Counted from the stretch's first letter, positions 39,774 to 50,115 are shown. The stretch: 64,000 bases of DNA from Acidobacteria bacterium Mor1 (GCA_001664505.1 CP011806.1:3758814-3822813); one strand, 5' to 3'. Program-made: numbers and translations. Notes: generated from the sequence alone by a model not told the origin.

Positions 39774-40466
39774 TCAATCGCCGCCGATGGTCCAGTGGTG
39801 GCGGATCTTCGGCTGTTCCCGGATCCGCTCGTGGACCGAGATACGCCGGGCCGCCACGGGGAGCTCGGGAGGCGGGTGCAAGGCGCTACGGATGGCTCGC
39901 AGCACCATGGCGACAAAGGCGACCCCGAGGAGGGGCGCGAGGAAGTACACGGAGAGGAAGAGCTGGCCGCCCGGACCCCACATGTAAACCAGGGTCATCG
40001 CCGCGAGACCGCTCAGCAACAGGATCAGCTTTTGCCCGGCCGAGAGGTGGTGATGCCCCGGAGTCGCCTTGGCTCTCTTGCGGCGTTCGATGAAAGCCGA
40101 GCCGTAGGGGCCGTTCTCCCTGGCGACCAGGATGACGCAAAGGGGCAGCGCGCCGTGACTGAATCCTCGAGCCCAGATGGCACCATGCTGACCCGGCCCG
40201 GCCTCGAGCATGTCCCACGCGATGTTGGTGTACTCCCCCACGGCCGCCGCGAGGATCAGGTGCCCGCCCGCCAGGATCATCATCGGGAATTTGGCCGGCG
40301 GAATGGCGGCGACGAGGACGCCGGCCAGGACGCTCACAGCCAGATGAACTTCATCACCCCAGGGCATCTCTGCGCGGCGGCGAACGATCTCGCAGAGCAC
40401 AACGGCGTATCCGCCGACGATTCCACGTTCCAGCGCCGAGTAGATGCTCTGACGTAGTGGAGTCAT
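39774..40466 (-). CDS. Membrane protein of a three-member paralogous tandem (copy 3)
   Basis: A 230-residue membrane protein, last of three related genes. It begins 'MTPLRQSIYSALERGIVGGY' and has about five hydrophobic segments ('VSVLAGVLVAAIPPAKFPMM', 'ILAGGHLILAAAVG', 'LILLLSGLAAMTLVYMWG', 'FLAPLLGVAFVAMVLRAI'), a conserved loop 'ENGPYGSAFIERRKRAKATP', and a basic tail 'PVAARRISVHERIREQPKIR'. The start and tail are almost the same in copy 2. No family recognised. 7 nt downstream of copy 2, so surely in one operon. Confidence 0.72.
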   Translation of the reverse strand: MTPLRQSIYSALERGIVGGYAVVLCEIVRRRAEMPWGDEVHLAVSVLAGVLVAAIPPAKFPMMILAGGHLILAAAVGEYTNIAWDMLEAGPGQHGAIWARGFSHGALPLCVILVARENGPYGSAFIERRKRAKATPGHHHLSAGQKLILLLSGLAAMTLVYMWGPGGQLFLSVYFLAPLLGVAFVAMVLRAIRSALHPPPELPVAARRISVHERIREQPKIRHHWTIGGD

Positions 40467-40473
40467 GTCGGCC

Positions 40474-41187
40474 TCAATCGCCGCCGACGCGGTATTGATG
40501 GCGGATGTTGGGCTGGTCACGAATGCGGTCCTGGACCGAGATCCGTCGGGCTGCCATCGGTAGCTCGCGCTTGGGCTTCCAGGCATCCCGGACCGCCTTC
40601 ACCAACAACACAGCGAGGAAGATCAAGATGATCGCCAAGGCACCGACCGCCGCCATGACCAGGTAGAACCCATCGTTCCCGCTCAGGAGGAGCAACAGCA
40701 GTGGCGCTCCCGCGCAAAGAGTCAGCAGCAACTTCCCATCATTCGACAACCTTCGATGGCCCGGTACGGCCTGAGAGGCTTTGCGCCTTTCGACCAGCGC
40801 CGCGCCGTAGGGGCCGTTCTGTTTTGCGATCAGGGCGACGAGGAGCGGCAGCAATCCGTGAGCGACGGCCTGGGTCCAGACGGTCCAGACCTCGCCGGGT
40901 TCGGCATCGCTCAGCGCCCGCACCAGTCCGGTGAATCCGCCGACCACCGCGGTGACCAGCAAGTGTCCGCCAGCCAGCAGCATCATCGGAAACTTGGCAA
41001 TCGGAGTCAGCAGTACCAGGAACAGCACCACGGGAGTGGCAACAGTGAGAGTCCACTCGGCTTGAATCGGGTCGACCCGGCTCGCCTCGACGTAGCGACG
41101 CAATACCTCGCAAAGCACTACTACGGAGTACCCGCCCACGACGCCTCGCTCAACGCCGGAGTAGACACTTTGTCGTAGTGGAGTCAT
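40474..41187 (-). CDS. Membrane protein of a three-member paralogous tandem (copy 2)
   Basis: A 237-residue paralogue of copy 3: 'MTPLRQSVYSGVERGVVGGY', hydrophobic segments 'VATPVVLFLVLLTPIAKFPM', 'LLAGGHLLVTAVVGGFTGLV', 'LLLTLCAGAPLLLLLLSG' and 'VMAAVGALAIILIFLAVLLV', the loop 'KQNGPYGAALVERRKASQAV' and tail 'PMAARRISVQDRIRDQPNIR'. ATG 41187 matches the N-terminus of copy 3; the open frame upstream runs through the intergenic 37 nt and is unsupported. Function unknown; the positively charged C-terminal tail should face the cytoplasm. Confidence 0.72.
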   Translation of the reverse strand: MTPLRQSVYSGVERGVVGGYSVVVLCEVLRRYVEASRVDPIQAEWTLTVATPVVLFLVLLTPIAKFPMMLLAGGHLLVTAVVGGFTGLVRALSDAEPGEVWTVWTQAVAHGLLPLLVALIAKQNGPYGAALVERRKASQAVPGHRRLSNDGKLLLTLCAGAPLLLLLLSGNDGFYLVMAAVGALAIILIFLAVLLVKAVRDAWKPKRELPMAARRISVQDRIRDQPNIRHQYRVGGD

Positions 41188-41224
41188 GGTCGACCTTCTG
41201 TTTCCGGAGCCCGTCACTGCCGGG

Positions 41225-41701
41225 TCAGTTGTAGAGGGTCCAGCGAGGCCCTCCCTTGGGTTTCTCCGGTTCGTCCTTCTCGTAGGAGACCCGGCGCGCG
41301 ACAAGCGGTATCTCCGGCGCCGGCTTCGGCCCCAGAGCGCTGCCGAAGGGGCCGGTCTGCTTGCAGATGTAGATCACCGCGATCGGCAGCAGCACGTTGG
41401 CCGCGACGATCACGCTCAGGTACAAAAGCGATCCCCCGCCCGCCTGGCGCAGCCAGTCCAGGGTCATCCAGGCGCCGAGCATGATGTAGAACACCAGGTG
41501 CACCCCGGCGGCGATCAGCAGCAGGAACTTGGCCGGGTCGAACCACAGGGTGAAGGCGACGAGCGCGGCGGTCATGAGCGCGGGCCAGGGCATCCAGGTG
41601 CCGAGGCCGAATTCCATGATCAGCGGCCGGGCCAGTTCGAGGAGCAGCAGCAGGTAAGCCGCCACGATGCCGCGTTCGATGCGCTCTGCGTGATTGCTCA
41701 T
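41225..41701 (-). CDS. Membrane protein of a three-member paralogous tandem (copy 1, short form)
   Basis: A 158-residue, shorter paralogue: 'MSNHAERIERGIVAAYLLLL' aligns with the 'ERGVVGGY' entry of the other copies. The segments 'WPALMTAALVAFTLWFDPAK' and 'FLLLIAAGVHLVFYIMLGAW' and the loop 'CKQTGPFGSALGPK' parallel theirs, and the end 'IPLVARRVSYEKDEPEKPKG' corresponds to their 'ARRIS' tail. It lacks the two extra C-terminal transmembrane segments. The start is supported by AAAAGGAGGAG. First gene of the operon, divergent from the Rieske-GltB gene. Confidence 0.75.
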   Translation of the reverse strand: MSNHAERIERGIVAAYLLLLLELARPLIMEFGLGTWMPWPALMTAALVAFTLWFDPAKFLLLIAAGVHLVFYIMLGAWMTLDWLRQAGGGSLLYLSVIVAANVLLPIAVIYICKQTGPFGSALGPKPAPEIPLVARRVSYEKDEPEKPKGGPRWTLYN

Positions 41702-41829
41702 GCTCTCCTCCTTTTGCGCGTGGAACGAGGGTTTTCCCCGGGCGGTTCCAGGAATCGACAACCGACGTAACGTTCCGCTGTTTCGCCGCAGATAACCCTT
41801 CTGGGAGTGCCTCGAACCGTGGCACCATG

Positions 41830-41864
41830 GCGGGCTTACGGCCCGCGGGGGGCTGGTTTCCAGC
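41830..41864. promoter_or_regulatory. Two short dyads upstream of the Rieske-GltB gene
   Basis: GCGGGC (41830-41835), TTACG, GCCCGC (41841-41846); then GCTGG (41852-41856), TTT, CCAGC (41860-41864). Both lie in the 181-bp divergent region before the strong Shine-Dalgarno GGGAGGAAGG. The first core, GGCTTACGGCC, resembles the XRE operator core at 21863. They may be operators or leader hairpins. Confidence 0.35.
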
Positions 41865-41882
41865 GTTTTCGGGAGGAAGGCG

Positions 41883-43517
41883 ATGTCTGGACAGGATGCG
41901 TCGCGGCCGGTGGAGGTCGCCCGGTGGTCGGAGCTTGCGGATCGCAAGCCCGCATACGCCCTGGTTTCGGCGGTGGATCTGGTGGTGGTGCGCTACGGCG
42001 ATGAAGTCTCGGTGCTCTACGGCCGTTGCTTGCACCGCGGGGCGCTGATGGCCGACGGCCACGTCGACGGTGACAACCTGATCTGCGGCGTGCACAACTG
42101 GGACTACCGGATCGACACCGGCGTCAGCGAGTACAACAACGCCGAAGTGCTGCACAAGTTCAACGCCTGGATCGACGACGACAAGGACGCGGTGATGGTC
42201 GACGCCGACGAGGTGGCGGCCTGGGCTAGCGAGCATCCGCAGCCTTTCGACCGGGACGCCTACCTGGGGCTCTACCAGGACCCGACAGGTACGGCGGCGG
42301 AGCCCTACAACAACCACATCCAGGCGCTGGCCCGGGACGGGCTGTCCAAGACCGGCCACCACGGCCCGGTTTCGGCCATGGGCGTGGCGCTCAACGAACT
42401 TCCCCGCTGGGAAGACATCCAGGTGCTGACCGCCCAGCTTCACCGGTTCCCGCTGCTCGACGATGCGCCGGTAGAAACGAAAGTCACCATCGGCCCCAAC
42501 GCGAAGAAGCCGCTTCATCTCGACATCCCGCTGTTCGTCAGCGACATGAGCTTCGGTGCGCTGTCGGAAGAAGCCAAGGTCGCGCTGGCGCGCGGCGCCG
42601 AGATGGCCGGCACCGGCATCTGTTCCGGTGAAGGGGGCATGCTGCCCGAGGAGCAAGCGGAGAACAGCCGCTACTTCTACGAGCTCGCCTCGGGGCGCTT
42701 CGGTTGGAGCCTGGACAAGGTCAAGCGCTGTCAGGCGTTCCACTTCAAGGGTGGCCAGGGCGCCAAGACCGGCACCGGCGGTCATCTTCCAGGTGAGAAG
42801 GTCCAGGGCAAGATCGCCGACGTGCGCGGCCTCGAACCGGGAACCCCCGCGATCAGTCCGCCGAAGTTCCCCGACTTCACCGGCCTCGATGACTTCAAGA
42901 AGGTCGCCGCGGAAGTGCGGGAGGTGACCGGCGGTATCCCCATCGGCTTCAAGCTTTCAGCCCAGCACATCGAAGCGGATCTGGACGCCGCCCTCGAGAT
43001 CGGCGTCGACTACGTGATCCTCGACGGTCGCGGAGGTGGCACCGGCGCCGCGCCGAACCTGTTCAAGCAGAACATCTCGGTGCCGACGATTCCGGCGCTG
43101 GCCCGGGCGCGCCGTCATCTCGACGCCCGCAAGCGGGGCGGCGTATCTCTCGTGATCACCGGCGGGCTGCGCACCGAGGCGGACTTCGTCAAGGCCCTCT
43201 GCCTGGGAGCCGACGCCATTGCCGTGTCGAACTCGGCGCTCCAGGCCATCGGCTGCCTCGGCATGCGCGCCTGCCACACCAACAACTGTCCGGTGGGGAT
43301 CGCGACCCAGAAGAACCATCTGCGGGCGCGGCTCAAGATTCAGAACTCCGCAGAACGCCTCGACCGCTACTTCCGCGCCACCGTCGATCTGATGAAGATC
43401 CTGGCCCGGGCCTGCGGTCATCACAGTTTCTCCGGCTTCAACCAGGGGGACCTGACCACCTGGAGCCGGGAGATGGCCGACCTGACCGGCCTGCCCTACG
43501 GCGGCGTCGGCCGCTAG
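41883..43517 (+). CDS. Rieske [2Fe-2S] domain fused to glutamate-synthase-like (GltB2-type) FMN/[3Fe-4S] domain
   Basis: A 544-residue fusion. Residues about 10-105 are a Rieske domain with Cys49-x-His51 and Cys68-x2-His71 (CLHRG/CGVHNW; the usual Pro after Cys is absent). Residues about 150-530 match the FMN-binding central and Fe-S parts of glutamate synthase: 'IPLFVSDMSFGALSEEAKVA', 'GTGICSGEGGMLPEE', 'QGAKTGTGGHLPGEKV', 'VDYVILDGRGGGTGAAP', and the [3Fe-4S] cysteines C-x5-C-x4-C in 'CLGMRACHTNNCPVGIATQ'. No glutaminase domain, so it is not a complete GOGAT. It is followed at 26 nt by a second Rieske-fused enzyme. Electrons could pass Rieske to FMN; the substrate is unknown. Confidence 0.85.
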   Translation: MSGQDASRPVEVARWSELADRKPAYALVSAVDLVVVRYGDEVSVLYGRCLHRGALMADGHVDGDNLICGVHNWDYRIDTGVSEYNNAEVLHKFNAWIDDDKDAVMVDADEVAAWASEHPQPFDRDAYLGLYQDPTGTAAEPYNNHIQALARDGLSKTGHHGPVSAMGVALNELPRWEDIQVLTAQLHRFPLLDDAPVETKVTIGPNAKKPLHLDIPLFVSDMSFGALSEEAKVALARGAEMAGTGICSGEGGMLPEEQAENSRYFYELASGRFGWSLDKVKRCQAFHFKGGQGAKTGTGGHLPGEKVQGKIADVRGLEPGTPAISPPKFPDFTGLDDFKKVAAEVREVTGGIPIGFKLSAQHIEADLDAALEIGVDYVILDGRGGGTGAAPNLFKQNISVPTIPALARARRHLDARKRGGVSLVITGGLRTEADFVKALCLGADAIAVSNSALQAIGCLGMRACHTNNCPVGIATQKNHLRARLKIQNSAERLDRYFRATVDLMKILARACGHHSFSGFNQGDLTTWSREMADLTGLPYGGVGR

Positions 43518-43543
43518 ACCAAGACCCTGCTTAGGAGTCCGTG

Positions 43544-45514
43544 ATGTCCGACAAGCTGAACATCGTCTGGGAGAAGGCGCTCGACAAAGACGAGCTGCCC
43601 GAAGGCCGCGTCAAGTCGGTGACCTGTCACCGGGTCAACATCTGCATGAGTCACTTCGAGGGGAAGTACGCGGCGTTGGACAACGCCTGTCCCCACCAGG
43701 GCGGACCCCTGGGTGAAGGGTCGATCGAGAACGGCTGGATCCGTTGTCCGTGGCACGGTTGGGATTTTCATCCGACCACCGGCAACTCTCCCGGTGGTCA
43801 CGACGACGGCGTCGACACTTTCCCGGTTGAGGTGCGTGACGACGGCGTCTACGTCGGCTTCCCCGCCGAGGAAGAGCACGTCCGTTCGGTCACCGACGTG
43901 ATGGCCGAGACCATGACCAACTGGGGTGTCCGCTGGGTCTTCGGCATGGTCGGCCACTCGAACCTGGGTCTGGCCGATGCCCTGCGGCGGCAGACCTCGG
44001 CGGGCAAGCTGGGCTACGTGGCGATTCGTCACGAGGGTGCGGCGGCCTTCGCCTGTTCGGCCTACGGCAAGTTGACCGGCCGTCCCGCCGCGTGCCTCGG
44101 CATCGCCGGCCCCGGTGCGACGAACCTGTTGACCGGCCTGTGGGACGCCAACGTCGATCGCTCACCGGTGCTGGCGTTGACCGGGCAGGTCGACACCCAG
44201 GTGATGGGGCCGGGCGCCTTCCAGGAGATCGATCTGCAGGCCGCCTTCGGCAAGGTGGCCCAGTTCACCCAGACCACGCTCCATACCAGCAAGCACGCGG
44301 AACTGGTCAACCTGGCCTGCAAGAGCGCGATCCTCAACCGGGGCGTGTCTCATCTGATCTTCCCCGACGAGGTGCAGGTGCTGCCCGCGGCGGAGGGCGC
44401 CAAGGCGGGCAAACCCGAGGGCCGGATCACCGCCCGGGAGATCGCGCCGCCGGAAGATTCCGTCGAGGACGCGGTCAAGCTGCTCAAGGGCGCCAAGCGC
44501 CCGGTGATCATCGTCGGCCACGGTTCGCGCTTCCACATGGATGAGGTAACGGCGCTGGCGGAGATGTTGAACGCTCCGGTGATCACCACCTTCAAGGGCA
44601 AGGGGTTGATCAGCGATCATCATCCGCTGGGTTGCGGCGTGCTCGGCCGCAGCGGCACGCCGATCGCCAGCTGGTTCATGAACGAGGCGGACTGCCTGCT
44701 GGTCATGGGTGCCAGCTTCTCCAACCACACCGGCATCACCCCGAAAAAACCGACGATCCAGGTGGACTACGATGCATTGGCGCTGGGACGCTTCCACGCC
44801 GTCGACGTGCTCTGCTGGGGCGAGGTCGGCGTCACCGCGCGGATCCTCAAGGAGCGCCTGGCTTCCGGCACCGCCGCGATCGATCAGCGGGGGGAGGTCG
44901 CCGACCGCTGGAAGATCTGGCGCAGCGAGAAGCAGCGCCGCGAGGCCGAGGAACGGGGCCACGGCATCCATTCGGCGACACTGTTCGCGGCAATGACCCG
45001 ACAGGTGGACAAGAACGCGATCATGGCCGTCGACGTGGGCAACAACACCTACTCCTTCGGCCGCTACTTCGAGTGCACCGATCAGGCGGTGCTGATGTCC
45101 GGTTACCTGGGCTCCATCGGCTTCTCGCTACCGGCGGCGCTTGGCGCCTGGTGCGCCACCCAGGAAGAGGACCCGCTGTTCAAGGGGCGCCAGGTGGTCT
45201 CGGTCAGCGGCGACGGCGGCTTCGGCCAGTACCTGGGCGACTGGACCACGACGGTGCGCCACAACATGAACATCACCCACGTGCTCTTGAACAACTGCGA
45301 GCTCGGAAAGATCAGCAAGGAGCAGCGTTCGGCCCACTTCGATGTGTGGGAGACCTCGCTGCACAACCCGAGTTTCTCGGGCTACGCCGAGCTGTGCGGG
45401 TCGAAGGGGATCCGGGTCACCGACGCGGCGAAGCTGGACGACGCGCTCCGCGAGGCGCTGGACCACGACGGCCCGGCGCTGGTCGAGGTGATGACCGACG
45501 CGAGCCTGATCTAG
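43544..45514 (+). CDS. Rieske [2Fe-2S] domain fused to thiamine-diphosphate-dependent oxidase/decarboxylase-like enzyme
   Basis: A 656-residue fusion. Residues about 8-107 are a canonical Rieske domain (Cys49-Pro-His51, Cys68-Pro-Trp-His71). Residues about 112-280 form the ThDP PYR domain, with Glu164 in 'IRHEGAAAFACSAYGKLTG' and 'GIAGPGATNLLTGLWDANVD'; about 300-430 is the central domain ('RPVIIVGHGSRFHMDEV'); about 480-640 is the PP domain with the ThDP motif from GDG (about 556-558) to NN ('THVLLNNCELGKISKEQRS'). It is similar to acetolactate synthase/pyruvate oxidase (PoxB)-type enzymes, which cleave 2-oxo acids. The Rieske domain suggests electrons are passed on rather than to O2. ATG 43544 follows AGGAG. 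Confidence 0.88.
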   Translation: MSDKLNIVWEKALDKDELPEGRVKSVTCHRVNICMSHFEGKYAALDNACPHQGGPLGEGSIENGWIRCPWHGWDFHPTTGNSPGGHDDGVDTFPVEVRDDGVYVGFPAEEEHVRSVTDVMAETMTNWGVRWVFGMVGHSNLGLADALRRQTSAGKLGYVAIRHEGAAAFACSAYGKLTGRPAACLGIAGPGATNLLTGLWDANVDRSPVLALTGQVDTQVMGPGAFQEIDLQAAFGKVAQFTQTTLHTSKHAELVNLACKSAILNRGVSHLIFPDEVQVLPAAEGAKAGKPEGRITAREIAPPEDSVEDAVKLLKGAKRPVIIVGHGSRFHMDEVTALAEMLNAPVITTFKGKGLISDHHPLGCGVLGRSGTPIASWFMNEADCLLVMGASFSNHTGITPKKPTIQVDYDALALGRFHAVDVLCWGEVGVTARILKERLASGTAAIDQRGEVADRWKIWRSEKQRREAEERGHGIHSATLFAAMTRQVDKNAIMAVDVGNNTYSFGRYFECTDQAVLMSGYLGSIGFSLPAALGAWCATQEEDPLFKGRQVVSVSGDGGFGQYLGDWTTTVRHNMNITHVLLNNCELGKISKEQRSAHFDVWETSLHNPSFSGYAELCGSKGIRVTDAAKLDDALREALDHDGPALVEVMTDASLI

Positions 45515-48465: not shown

Positions 48466-50115
48466 CTAGGCGTCGGGCTCGGTCAGGAATCGGTGGACCG
48501 CCGAGATCACCACGGACCCCTCGCCGACGGCCGAGGCGACACGTTTGACCGACCCGGCCCGAATGTCACCGACGGCGAAGACACCGGGCAGGCTGGTTTC
48601 ATAGGTCGATGACCGGGGGCTCGCATCGGCACCGGTCCGGATGAAGCCCTTGTCGTCGAGGGCGAGTTGGCCGTCGAGCCATCCGGTGTTTGGGGCGGCG
48701 CCCGCCATGATGAACAGCGCTCGACAGTCGAGGCTCGTTTCCTCGCCGGTCTGGTTGTTGCGCAACACCACCCGTTCCAGTTCAGGGTCTCCCTCGAGCC
48801 GGTTCACCTCGGTACGGGTCCACAGGCGAATCCGTTCGTCGCTTTCGATGCGCCGGGTCAGGTAGCTGGACATCGTGGCGGCGAGCCCCGATCCGCGGAC
48901 GGCGATGTGGGTGCAGCGGGCGTGCCGCGACAGGAACATCGCCGCCTGCCCCGCCGAGTTGCCGCCGCCGACGATCACCGCCTGGGTGCCCGAGCAGTAG
49001 CGAGCCTCGAGGTCGGTGGCGGCGTAGTACACGCCGCGGCCCTCGTAGTCGGCGATTCCCTCGATGGGCAGGCGGCGGTACTGGACACCGTTTGCCAGCA
49101 CCACCGAGCGGCCCTTGACCTCGGATCCGTCGTCCAGTTCGAGGCCGAACCCGCCGGATACTTCGCACAGCTTCGTGGCCCGCCGCGGCGTGGTCACCCG
49201 GGCGCCGAACTTCACCGCCTGAACCTCACCCAGGTAGGCCAGCTCGGCGCCGGAGATGCCCCGGGGAAAGCCGAGATAGTTCTCGATACGCGAGGAGGTG
49301 CCCGCCTGGCCGCCGATCGCCGTGTCCTCGATGGCCAGCACCGACAGCCCTTCCGAAGCCGCGTAGACGCTGGCCGCCAGGCCCGCCGGCCCCGCACCGA
49401 CCACCAACACGTCGAAGGTCGTGCCGCAGTCGGCGACCAGGTCCAGGCCCATGGCTTCGGCCAGCTCTCTGGGTTTCGGTGAGGCGAGGATTTTCGAGTT
49501 GCCGACGATGGCCGCCGGTCCCTCGGCCGGCAGATCGCCGAGCTCGGCGAGTTCCGCCATCTCGTTCGTCGCCGAGCGTTCGACCCAGCGGTGGGGGATC
49601 TGGCTGCGGTGAGCGAACTCTCGCAGCCGCAGCGCCCGGGGATCGGTGTCGTCTCCAAGCAGGATCAACCCGCCTTCGCCCCATTCCATCAATAGCCTGC
49701 GCCGGGCGGCAAAGGCGGGTACGACGACATCGCCCACCTCGGGGATCTTGCGAACCAGTTCCCGCAGGCGGGCCTGGGGCACCACGACGGCGCGGGTTTG
49801 CTCGCGCGCACGCCCTGCGAGAAAGGCCCGTTGACCCATCAGCATGCCGAGTTCGCCGAGGAAGTGTCCCGCATCGATCCGAACCACCGTGTGGCCGTCG
49901 GAGCGGTCGATGATGTCGACGGAGCCACTCTCCAGGTAGAACAGGTCGTAGCCGTCTTGTCCGACGTCGAAGAGCAGGGCTCCCGCGTCGAAGGTCTTCT
50001 CGGTTCCGTGCCGGCGGATCGCCTGACGGAACCCGTCATCCAGGTCGGGCCAGGCAGCTTGTTCGAGACTGGTCTTGGCGAGAGAGCGTTGCGGCCGGCG
50101 AGGGTCGGGACTCAT
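48466..50115 (-). CDS. Cyclic-nucleotide-binding domain fused to thioredoxin-reductase-like FAD oxidoreductase
   Basis: A 549-residue fusion. Residues about 25-135 are a cNMP-binding domain ('FDAGALLFDVGQDGYDLFYL', 'GSVDIIDRSDGHTVV', 'DAGHFLGELGMLMGQRAFLA'). Residues about 235-545 are a thioredoxin-reductase-like flavoprotein: 'DVLVVGAGPAGLAASVYAAS', 'GGQAGTSSRIENYLGFPRGI', NADPH loop 'AVIVGGGNSAGQAAMFLSRH', and 'LPGVFAVGDIRAGSVKRVAS'. The redox CxxC of true thioredoxin reductases is missing: where it should be the sequence reads 'ATDLEARYCSGTQ', a single Cys. So it reduces something other than thioredoxin. Between the two parts is an about 80-residue thioredoxin-like linker region (about 145-225). 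Confidence 0.88.
   Translation of the reverse strand: MSPDPRRPQRSLAKTSLEQAAWPDLDDGFRQAIRRHGTEKTFDAGALLFDVGQDGYDLFYLESGSVDIIDRSDGHTVVRIDAGHFLGELGMLMGQRAFLAGRAREQTRAVVVPQARLRELVRKIPEVGDVVVPAFAARRRLLMEWGEGGLILLGDDTDPRALRLREFAHRSQIPHRWVERSATNEMAELAELGDLPAEGPAAIVGNSKILASPKPRELAEAMGLDLVADCGTTFDVLVVGAGPAGLAASVYAASEGLSVLAIEDTAIGGQAGTSSRIENYLGFPRGISGAELAYLGEVQAVKFGARVTTPRRATKLCEVSGGFGLELDDGSEVKGRSVVLANGVQYRRLPIEGIADYEGRGVYYAATDLEARYCSGTQAVIVGGGNSAGQAAMFLSRHARCTHIAVRGSGLAATMSSYLTRRIESDERIRLWTRTEVNRLEGDPELERVVLRNNQTGEETSLDCRALFIMAGAAPNTGWLDGQLALDDKGFIRTGADASPRSSTYETSLPGVFAVGDIRAGSVKRVASAVGEGSVVISAVHRFLTEPDA

Follow-up and report, generated by a model that had tools for sequence, protein, structure and literature searches.

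Two adjacent enzymes with N-terminal Rieske domains and a candidate Rieske-bearing membrane cytochrome as their shared partner

PoxB of E. coli, CgPQO (the pyruvate:quinone oxidoreductase, PQO, of C. glutamicum) and LpPOX are oxidases that use flavin adenine dinucleotide (FAD) and thiamine diphosphate (ThDP), and the C-terminal tail of PoxB serves in membrane binding (compare Protein Data Bank entries 3eya and 3ey9). Glutamate synthase (GltB) contains a Glu_synthase domain with flavin mononucleotide (FMN) and a [3Fe-4S] cluster. Fusions of CDGSH and Glu_synthase domains are known as type 5 CDGSH proteins (PMC3174974). The window analyzed here is a stretch of 64,000 nucleotides from Acidobacteria bacterium Mor1 (GCA_001664505.1, CP011806.1:3758814-3822813), with positions counted from its first nucleotide. 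Two consecutive genes on its + strand encode relatives of these enzymes, each of which begins with a Rieske [2Fe-2S] domain. GltB2-R (41883..43517, 544 residues) joins this domain to an FMN/[3Fe-4S] Glu_synthase domain, as assigned from Pfam, motifs, ligand conservation and a fold match to glutamate synthases. ThDP-R (43544..45514, 656 residues) joins it to TPP N, M and C domains of the PoxB/PQO type and has no C-terminal membrane tail, as assigned from Pfam, NCBIfam and Protein Data Bank matches, an AlphaFold2 model and a comparison of the tails. The pair recurs across many phyla, and a membrane cytochrome b with a Rieske domain of its own, FRD-R, is a candidate partner.

In the coding region of GltB2-R (41883-43514, +), Pfam places the Rieske domain (PF00355) at residues 10-81 (E 2.7e-11) and the Glu_synthase domain (PF01645) at residues 202-512 (E 6.9e-89). 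In that of ThDP-R (43544-45511, +), the Rieske domain lies at residues 9-81 (E 9.9e-16), and TPP_enzyme_N, TPP_enzyme_M and TPP_enzyme_C extend across residues 115-649, each with E <= 1e-30; a GDG-x26-NN motif is also present. The motif scan gives the Rieske ligands as Cys49-x-His51 and Cys68-xx-His71 in both proteins (42027..42095 and 43688..43756, respectively, both +), where the numbering of ThDP-R assumes the ATG start at 43544, and a GTG start at 43541 would give Cys50. All four ligands are invariant in the homologue alignments (50/50 flavoproteins and 97/97 ThDP proteins); six homologues missed by the Rieske motif pattern still align all four, and the three that were inspected have a longer spacer. 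Since the ligands are invariant and the pair recurs across many phyla, the presence of these Rieske domains is not a matter of chance. The cysteines of the [3Fe-4S] motif of GltB2-R, C458-x5-C464-x4-C469 (43254..43289, +), and K289, K295, H301 and R315 are invariant in 50/50 flavoproteins. In ThDP-R, E164 and the four named residues of Lys589-x-x-Lys592-Glu593-Gln594 (45308..45325, +) are invariant in 97/97. The sequence-only reading had described consecutive GltB-like and ThDP-dependent enzymes with N-terminal Rieske domains, equal ligand numbers and intact catalytic parts; Pfam and the motif scan agree with the first two points, and motifs and conservation with the last.

The two genes are separated by 26 bp on the same strand and are preceded by the Shine-Dalgarno-like sequences GGAGG and AGGAG, and therefore they probably form one two-gene operon. 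In a tree of Rieske domains, those of the ThDP proteins, the flavoproteins and the cytochromes form three separate, well supported groups, where the branches are long and the deeper order is unsure. Because of these separate groups, a recent duplication of one Rieske module is ruled out as the source of the equal ligand numbering. The genome of the window, one contig of 5.985 Mb, contains seven Rieske matches.

The conservation of the pair was surveyed by scanning named genomes with the ThDP-protein alignment, and of the relatives, at least 550 in number, the analysis took the 80 best, with identities of 64-75%. Relatives of ThDP-R occur in Acidobacteriota, Gemmatimonadota, Myxococcota, Planctomycetota, Nitrospirota, Nitrospinota, Pseudomonadota, Cyanobacteriota, Calditrichota and others, and also on plasmids of haloarchaea (65% identical) and of a Mycobacteroides (53%). 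The genes of GltB2-R and ThDP-R are close together in 45/80 loci; thus, the pair first read from this one stretch is, as a whole, conserved. Both genes are on the same strand in 43 of the 45 paired loci and in the gene order of the window in 38, and the intergenic gap is <200 bp in 28, 200-1500 bp in 16 and larger in one. The remaining 35 genomes have no flavoprotein in the fetched flank; the core was found elsewhere in 25 of them, and in 20 of these 25 the match covers the Rieske part and the full core. Counts of absence for the flavoprotein are weak, because the genomes are mostly metagenome-assembled genomes (MAGs). A quick tree of the ThDP proteins has 26 changes of phylum label compared with a minimum of 14, which fits a transfer of ThDP-R between phyla but is no proof of it. 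In annotated plasmid records, ThDP-R is named only 'thiamine pyrophosphate-binding' and GltB2-R only 'glutamate synthase-related'. On plasmids L090-L094, which are from haloarchaea and, in one case, Mycobacteroides abscessus, ThDP-R lies near merA, DsrE, TauE/SafE or cation antiporter genes.

The best matches of ThDP-R in both sequence and fold are PoxB, CgPQO, LpPOX and acetolactate synthases. Its AlphaFold2 model has a mean predicted local distance difference test score (pLDDT) of 90.5, and PoxB, which is among the nearest folds together with CgPQO and LpPOX, has a TM-score of 0.90 by target length to this model. These fold matches to FAD enzymes suggest that ThDP-R may bind FAD. The likeness to PoxB and PQO consists in the ThDP enzyme fold at residues 113-654, with three TPP domains, and in the retained ThDP glutamate (Glu164) and glutamate of the C-terminal active-site motif (Glu593). 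However, the best score against the PoxB/PQO equivalog of NCBIfam is 377.6 bits, below the cut-off of 742, and among the 25 best NCBIfam matches listed there is none whose cut-off ThDP-R reaches. It differs from PoxB and PQO in the added N-terminal Rieske domain and in the absence of the C-terminal tail: 97/97 homologues end at the position of residue 656, whereas PoxB (572 residues) and CgPQO extend about 40 residues past this end in the alignment. The loss of the tail would mean a changed exit for the electrons. Moreover, the invariant Lys589 corresponds to Phe in PoxB and LpPOX and to Met in CgPQO. Because this lysine sits where PoxB has Phe, it suggests that the substrate is no longer pyruvate but a compound whose side chain is anionic.

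GltB2-R resembles glutamate synthase in its Glu_synthase domain, its [3Fe-4S] cysteines and its active-site Lys/Arg stretch, which is matched by Lys289, Lys295 and Arg315; these positions presumably have a role in binding 2-oxoglutarate. It differs in its length of 544 residues, within which Pfam found no glutaminase domain, in its N-terminal Rieske domain, and in the Gln of the GGQLPG motif, which is His301. The score against the glutamate synthase family of NCBIfam is 151 bits, below the cut-off of 1047. The model of GltB2-R (mean pLDDT 79, poor loops), which matches the folds of glutamate synthases, is weaker than that of ThDP-R. The oxidation of 2-oxo acids proposed by the sequence-only reading fits the PoxB-type fold of ThDP-R, while GltB2-R could run an oxidation or a reductive amination.

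A closer relation is seen with the type 5 CDGSH proteins, in which the same flavoprotein core likewise has a [2Fe-2S] module at its N-terminus. Six genomes of the phylum sample given below contain a GltB2 core that is 63-70% identical, where the match begins near residue 133 and the N-terminus is not Rieske; two CDGSH motifs are found upstream of the core, in the place of the Rieske domain, in all four of the genomes that were inspected. GltB2-R thus differs in having a Rieske cluster (2Cys-2His) instead of two CDGSH clusters (3Cys-1His), and in being found with ThDP-R and FRD-R, neither of which occurs in any of the six genomes. The comparison of FRD-R presence between the non-Rieske-core type and the Rieske type gives a value of 0.009. 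As read from the sequences, the [2Fe-2S] module on the GltB2 core is swapped and tracks the partner. Because two unrelated [2Fe-2S] modules can occupy the same position on one core, the module would act as an electron port. The absence of the tail in ThDP-R and the Rieske domain of the flavoprotein, where its nearest relatives have CDGSH domains, suggest such a role for the N-terminal cluster of both proteins.

FRD-R is a ferric-reductase-like cytochrome b with a Ferric_reduct domain (PF01794), a C-terminal Rieske domain (PF00355) and conserved histidines. It resembles MsrQ and ferric-reductase-like proteins in PF01794, with a weak MsrQ match, and differs from them in the C-terminal Rieske domain, which is of the dioxygenase-ferredoxin type, and in a one-helix partner with conserved cysteines (D-x-K-C...H..C...C), with which it is usually found. 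In several genomes and families, FRD-R adjoins the pair, before or after it, or one member of the pair. In the genome of the window, FRD-R and its one-helix partner are located at 4.55 Mb, about 0.75 Mb from the pair, in a unit of a small membrane protein, FRD-R and the one-helix cysteine-rich protein (L098:8605-10776, −), and this FRD-R is 60% identical to that of locus L017. A rough prediction from hydropathy and charge (positive-inside) places its Rieske end in the cytosol.

In a phylum sample of 297 genomes, ThDP-R is present in 16, FRD-R in 31 and the Rieske-bearing flavoprotein in 12, a count that includes G194, where a fragment at a contig end lies beside ThDP-R and the Rieske part is not seen. 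With presence sets compiled by hand from tables and Fisher tests that ignore shared ancestry, ThDP-R and FRD-R share 15 genomes, which are 15/16 of those with ThDP-R (7e-16), ThDP-R and the flavoprotein share nine (5e-11), and the flavoprotein and FRD-R share nine, which are 9/12 of those with GltB2-R (8e-8). All three associations are still below 1e-9 when the over-sampled genus g87 is removed. In seven genomes of g87, ThDP-R and FRD-R are present but the flavoprotein is not. Genome G004, which has no ThDP-R here, shows an operon-like arrangement (L107:8567-12909, +) of GltB2-R, a small membrane protein, a 154-residue protein, FRD-R and a cysteine-rich one-helix protein. Because of these two cases, FRD-R seems to be a common hub and not the terminus of a single linear chain.

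In a Phycisphaeraceae MAG (L118:2982-5366, −), the gene of a Rieske cytochrome closes with TGA, and directly after it, in the same frame, comes a GltB2 core that has no Rieske domain of its own. This arrangement was rejected as a Rosetta-stone fusion of cytochrome and flavoprotein: a stop codon lies between the two, the core has no Rieske domain, and the start of the cytochrome partner gene is in another frame and cut off. On these grounds, a join by deletion or a chimeric contig of the MAG is just as probable as a fusion.

From the domains, the invariant ligands, the conservation of the pair, the absence of the tail and the statistical and local association with FRD-R, we propose, at about even chances, that ThDP-R and GltB2-R are two cytosolic dehydrogenases with Rieske ports that share the Rieske-tailed membrane cytochrome FRD-R. 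The cofactor loading, the substrates, the direction of electron flow, the formation of a complex and the topology would then be as follows. ThDP-R would most likely decarboxylate a 2-oxo acid on ThDP and oxidize the ThDP-bound intermediate, probably via FAD as in PoxB; in place of a PoxB-type membrane-docking tail, its Rieske cluster would pass the electrons out. GltB2-R would be a flavoenzyme whose substrate is a 2-oxo or amino acid and whose wiring leads from FMN through [3Fe-4S] to Rieske. Both would exchange electrons, possibly in a complex, with FRD-R, a six-helix cytochrome b whose Rieske domain is predicted to be cytosolic. More tentatively, this may be an undescribed, horizontally mobile 'Rieske-wired' module, in which unrelated soluble dehydrogenases plug into a Rieske-bearing cytochrome b and feed or draw on the quinone pool without NADH. 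If this is true, many bacterial phyla and haloarchaea have a route that links central 2-oxo-acid or amino-acid metabolism to the membrane independently of NADH, and one flavoprotein core can trade a CDGSH [2Fe-2S] plug for a Rieske plug, with the partner changing too.

Several observations weigh against a shared FRD-R. The strength of the association depends on the hand-compiled sets and on tests blind to ancestry, as stated above. Xenococcus and some others have no GltB2-R, and on the haloarchaeal plasmids with ThDP-R a flavoprotein is either missing next to it or 1.4-4 kb away. The recurrent neighbors DUF5996, Na+/H+ exchanger and carbonic anhydrase are not accounted for by the model. Furthermore, only 9/41 additional genomes with ThDP-R, most of which belong to other phyla, contain FRD-R; it is therefore not a universal partner, and others must serve outside the phylum sample. 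The absence of FRD-R from the other 32/41 also favors the view that the two are independent enzymes, whose Rieske domains have general partners in solution (ferredoxin or flavin reductases), with the co-occurrence of FRD-R reflecting a lifestyle with many redox genes. This view is consistent with the NADPH-dependent FMN reductase genes that adjoin ThDP-R in two cyanobacteria and the flavodoxin-family gene that adjoins it on a mycobacterial plasmid. However, several families have FRD-R physically next to the pair or to one of its members, the association of FRD-R inside the phylum is strong, and the same core in its CDGSH form shows no such association; we consider independent enzymes possible, though on balance improbable.

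The common operon can also be read as a linked two-step pathway near 2-oxoglutarate or a similar dicarboxylate, in which GltB2-R would interconvert an amino acid and a 2-oxo acid, ThDP-R would decarboxylate the latter, and the Rieske domains would balance the electrons. The retained Lys289, Lys295 and Arg315 of GltB2-R, the invariant Lys589 of ThDP-R, which suits an anionic side chain, and a class-III aminotransferase, which recurs as a neighbor of the pair in three loci, are in line with this pathway. It appears doubtful, since each gene is also found without the other and the Gln of the glutamate synthase motif is replaced by His301. The sequence-only reading had instead suggested that electrons from ThDP-R could pass along one linear chain, by way of the Rieske centres and the FMN protein, to a membrane acceptor, perhaps the adjacent membrane triplet. 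The gene order of the window speaks for this chain. The triplet (39774-41947, −) consists of three paralogous membrane proteins, two of which are 45% identical and the third about 31-34%; it has no Pfam or NCBIfam match, and no homologue of it was found in any fetched locus around the pair, on which ground it was rejected as the partner. As g87 has ThDP-R and FRD-R without GltB2-R, and G004 a flavoprotein-FRD-R operon without ThDP-R, an obligatory chain from ThDP to FMN is not supported either. The linear chain is thus largely refuted and very improbable; what stands of it is the expectation of a membrane acceptor, for which FRD-R, with its own Rieske domain, is the candidate in our proposal of a shared cytochrome.

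To our knowledge and in the literature searched, the combination, its spread and its association with FRD-R are undescribed, although each part is of a known kind. The search gave no paper on Rieske together with 'FMN-binding glutamate synthase' and none on DUF5996; the papers on Rieske and pyruvate oxidase were, by their titles and abstracts, off-topic.

A DUF5996 gene often fills the gap between the pair, and the family is present in 33 loci in two forms, a canonical one (PF19459, E 1e-56) and a divergent one. It was rejected as an obligatory third component, because only 4/16 ThDP-R genomes of the phylum sample have it; the genome of the window has two DUF5996 genes, both away from the pair. 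As a domain of unknown function, DUF5996 gains a testable context here. An anti-phage defence role of the pair was set aside, as PADLOC gave no match. In Nitrospirales-type loci (L022, L032, L034 and L039), an alpha-carbonic anhydrase gene is directly 3' of ThDP-R. A Na+/H+ exchanger gene lies near ThDP-R in L014, L018, L027-L029, L033, L046, L055 and L065, which are mostly gammaproteobacterial and include Thiodiazotropha symbionts. Elsewhere in the window, the gene at 48469-50115 (−) encodes a cyclic-nucleotide-binding domain fused to a pyridine-nucleotide-disulphide oxidoreductase.

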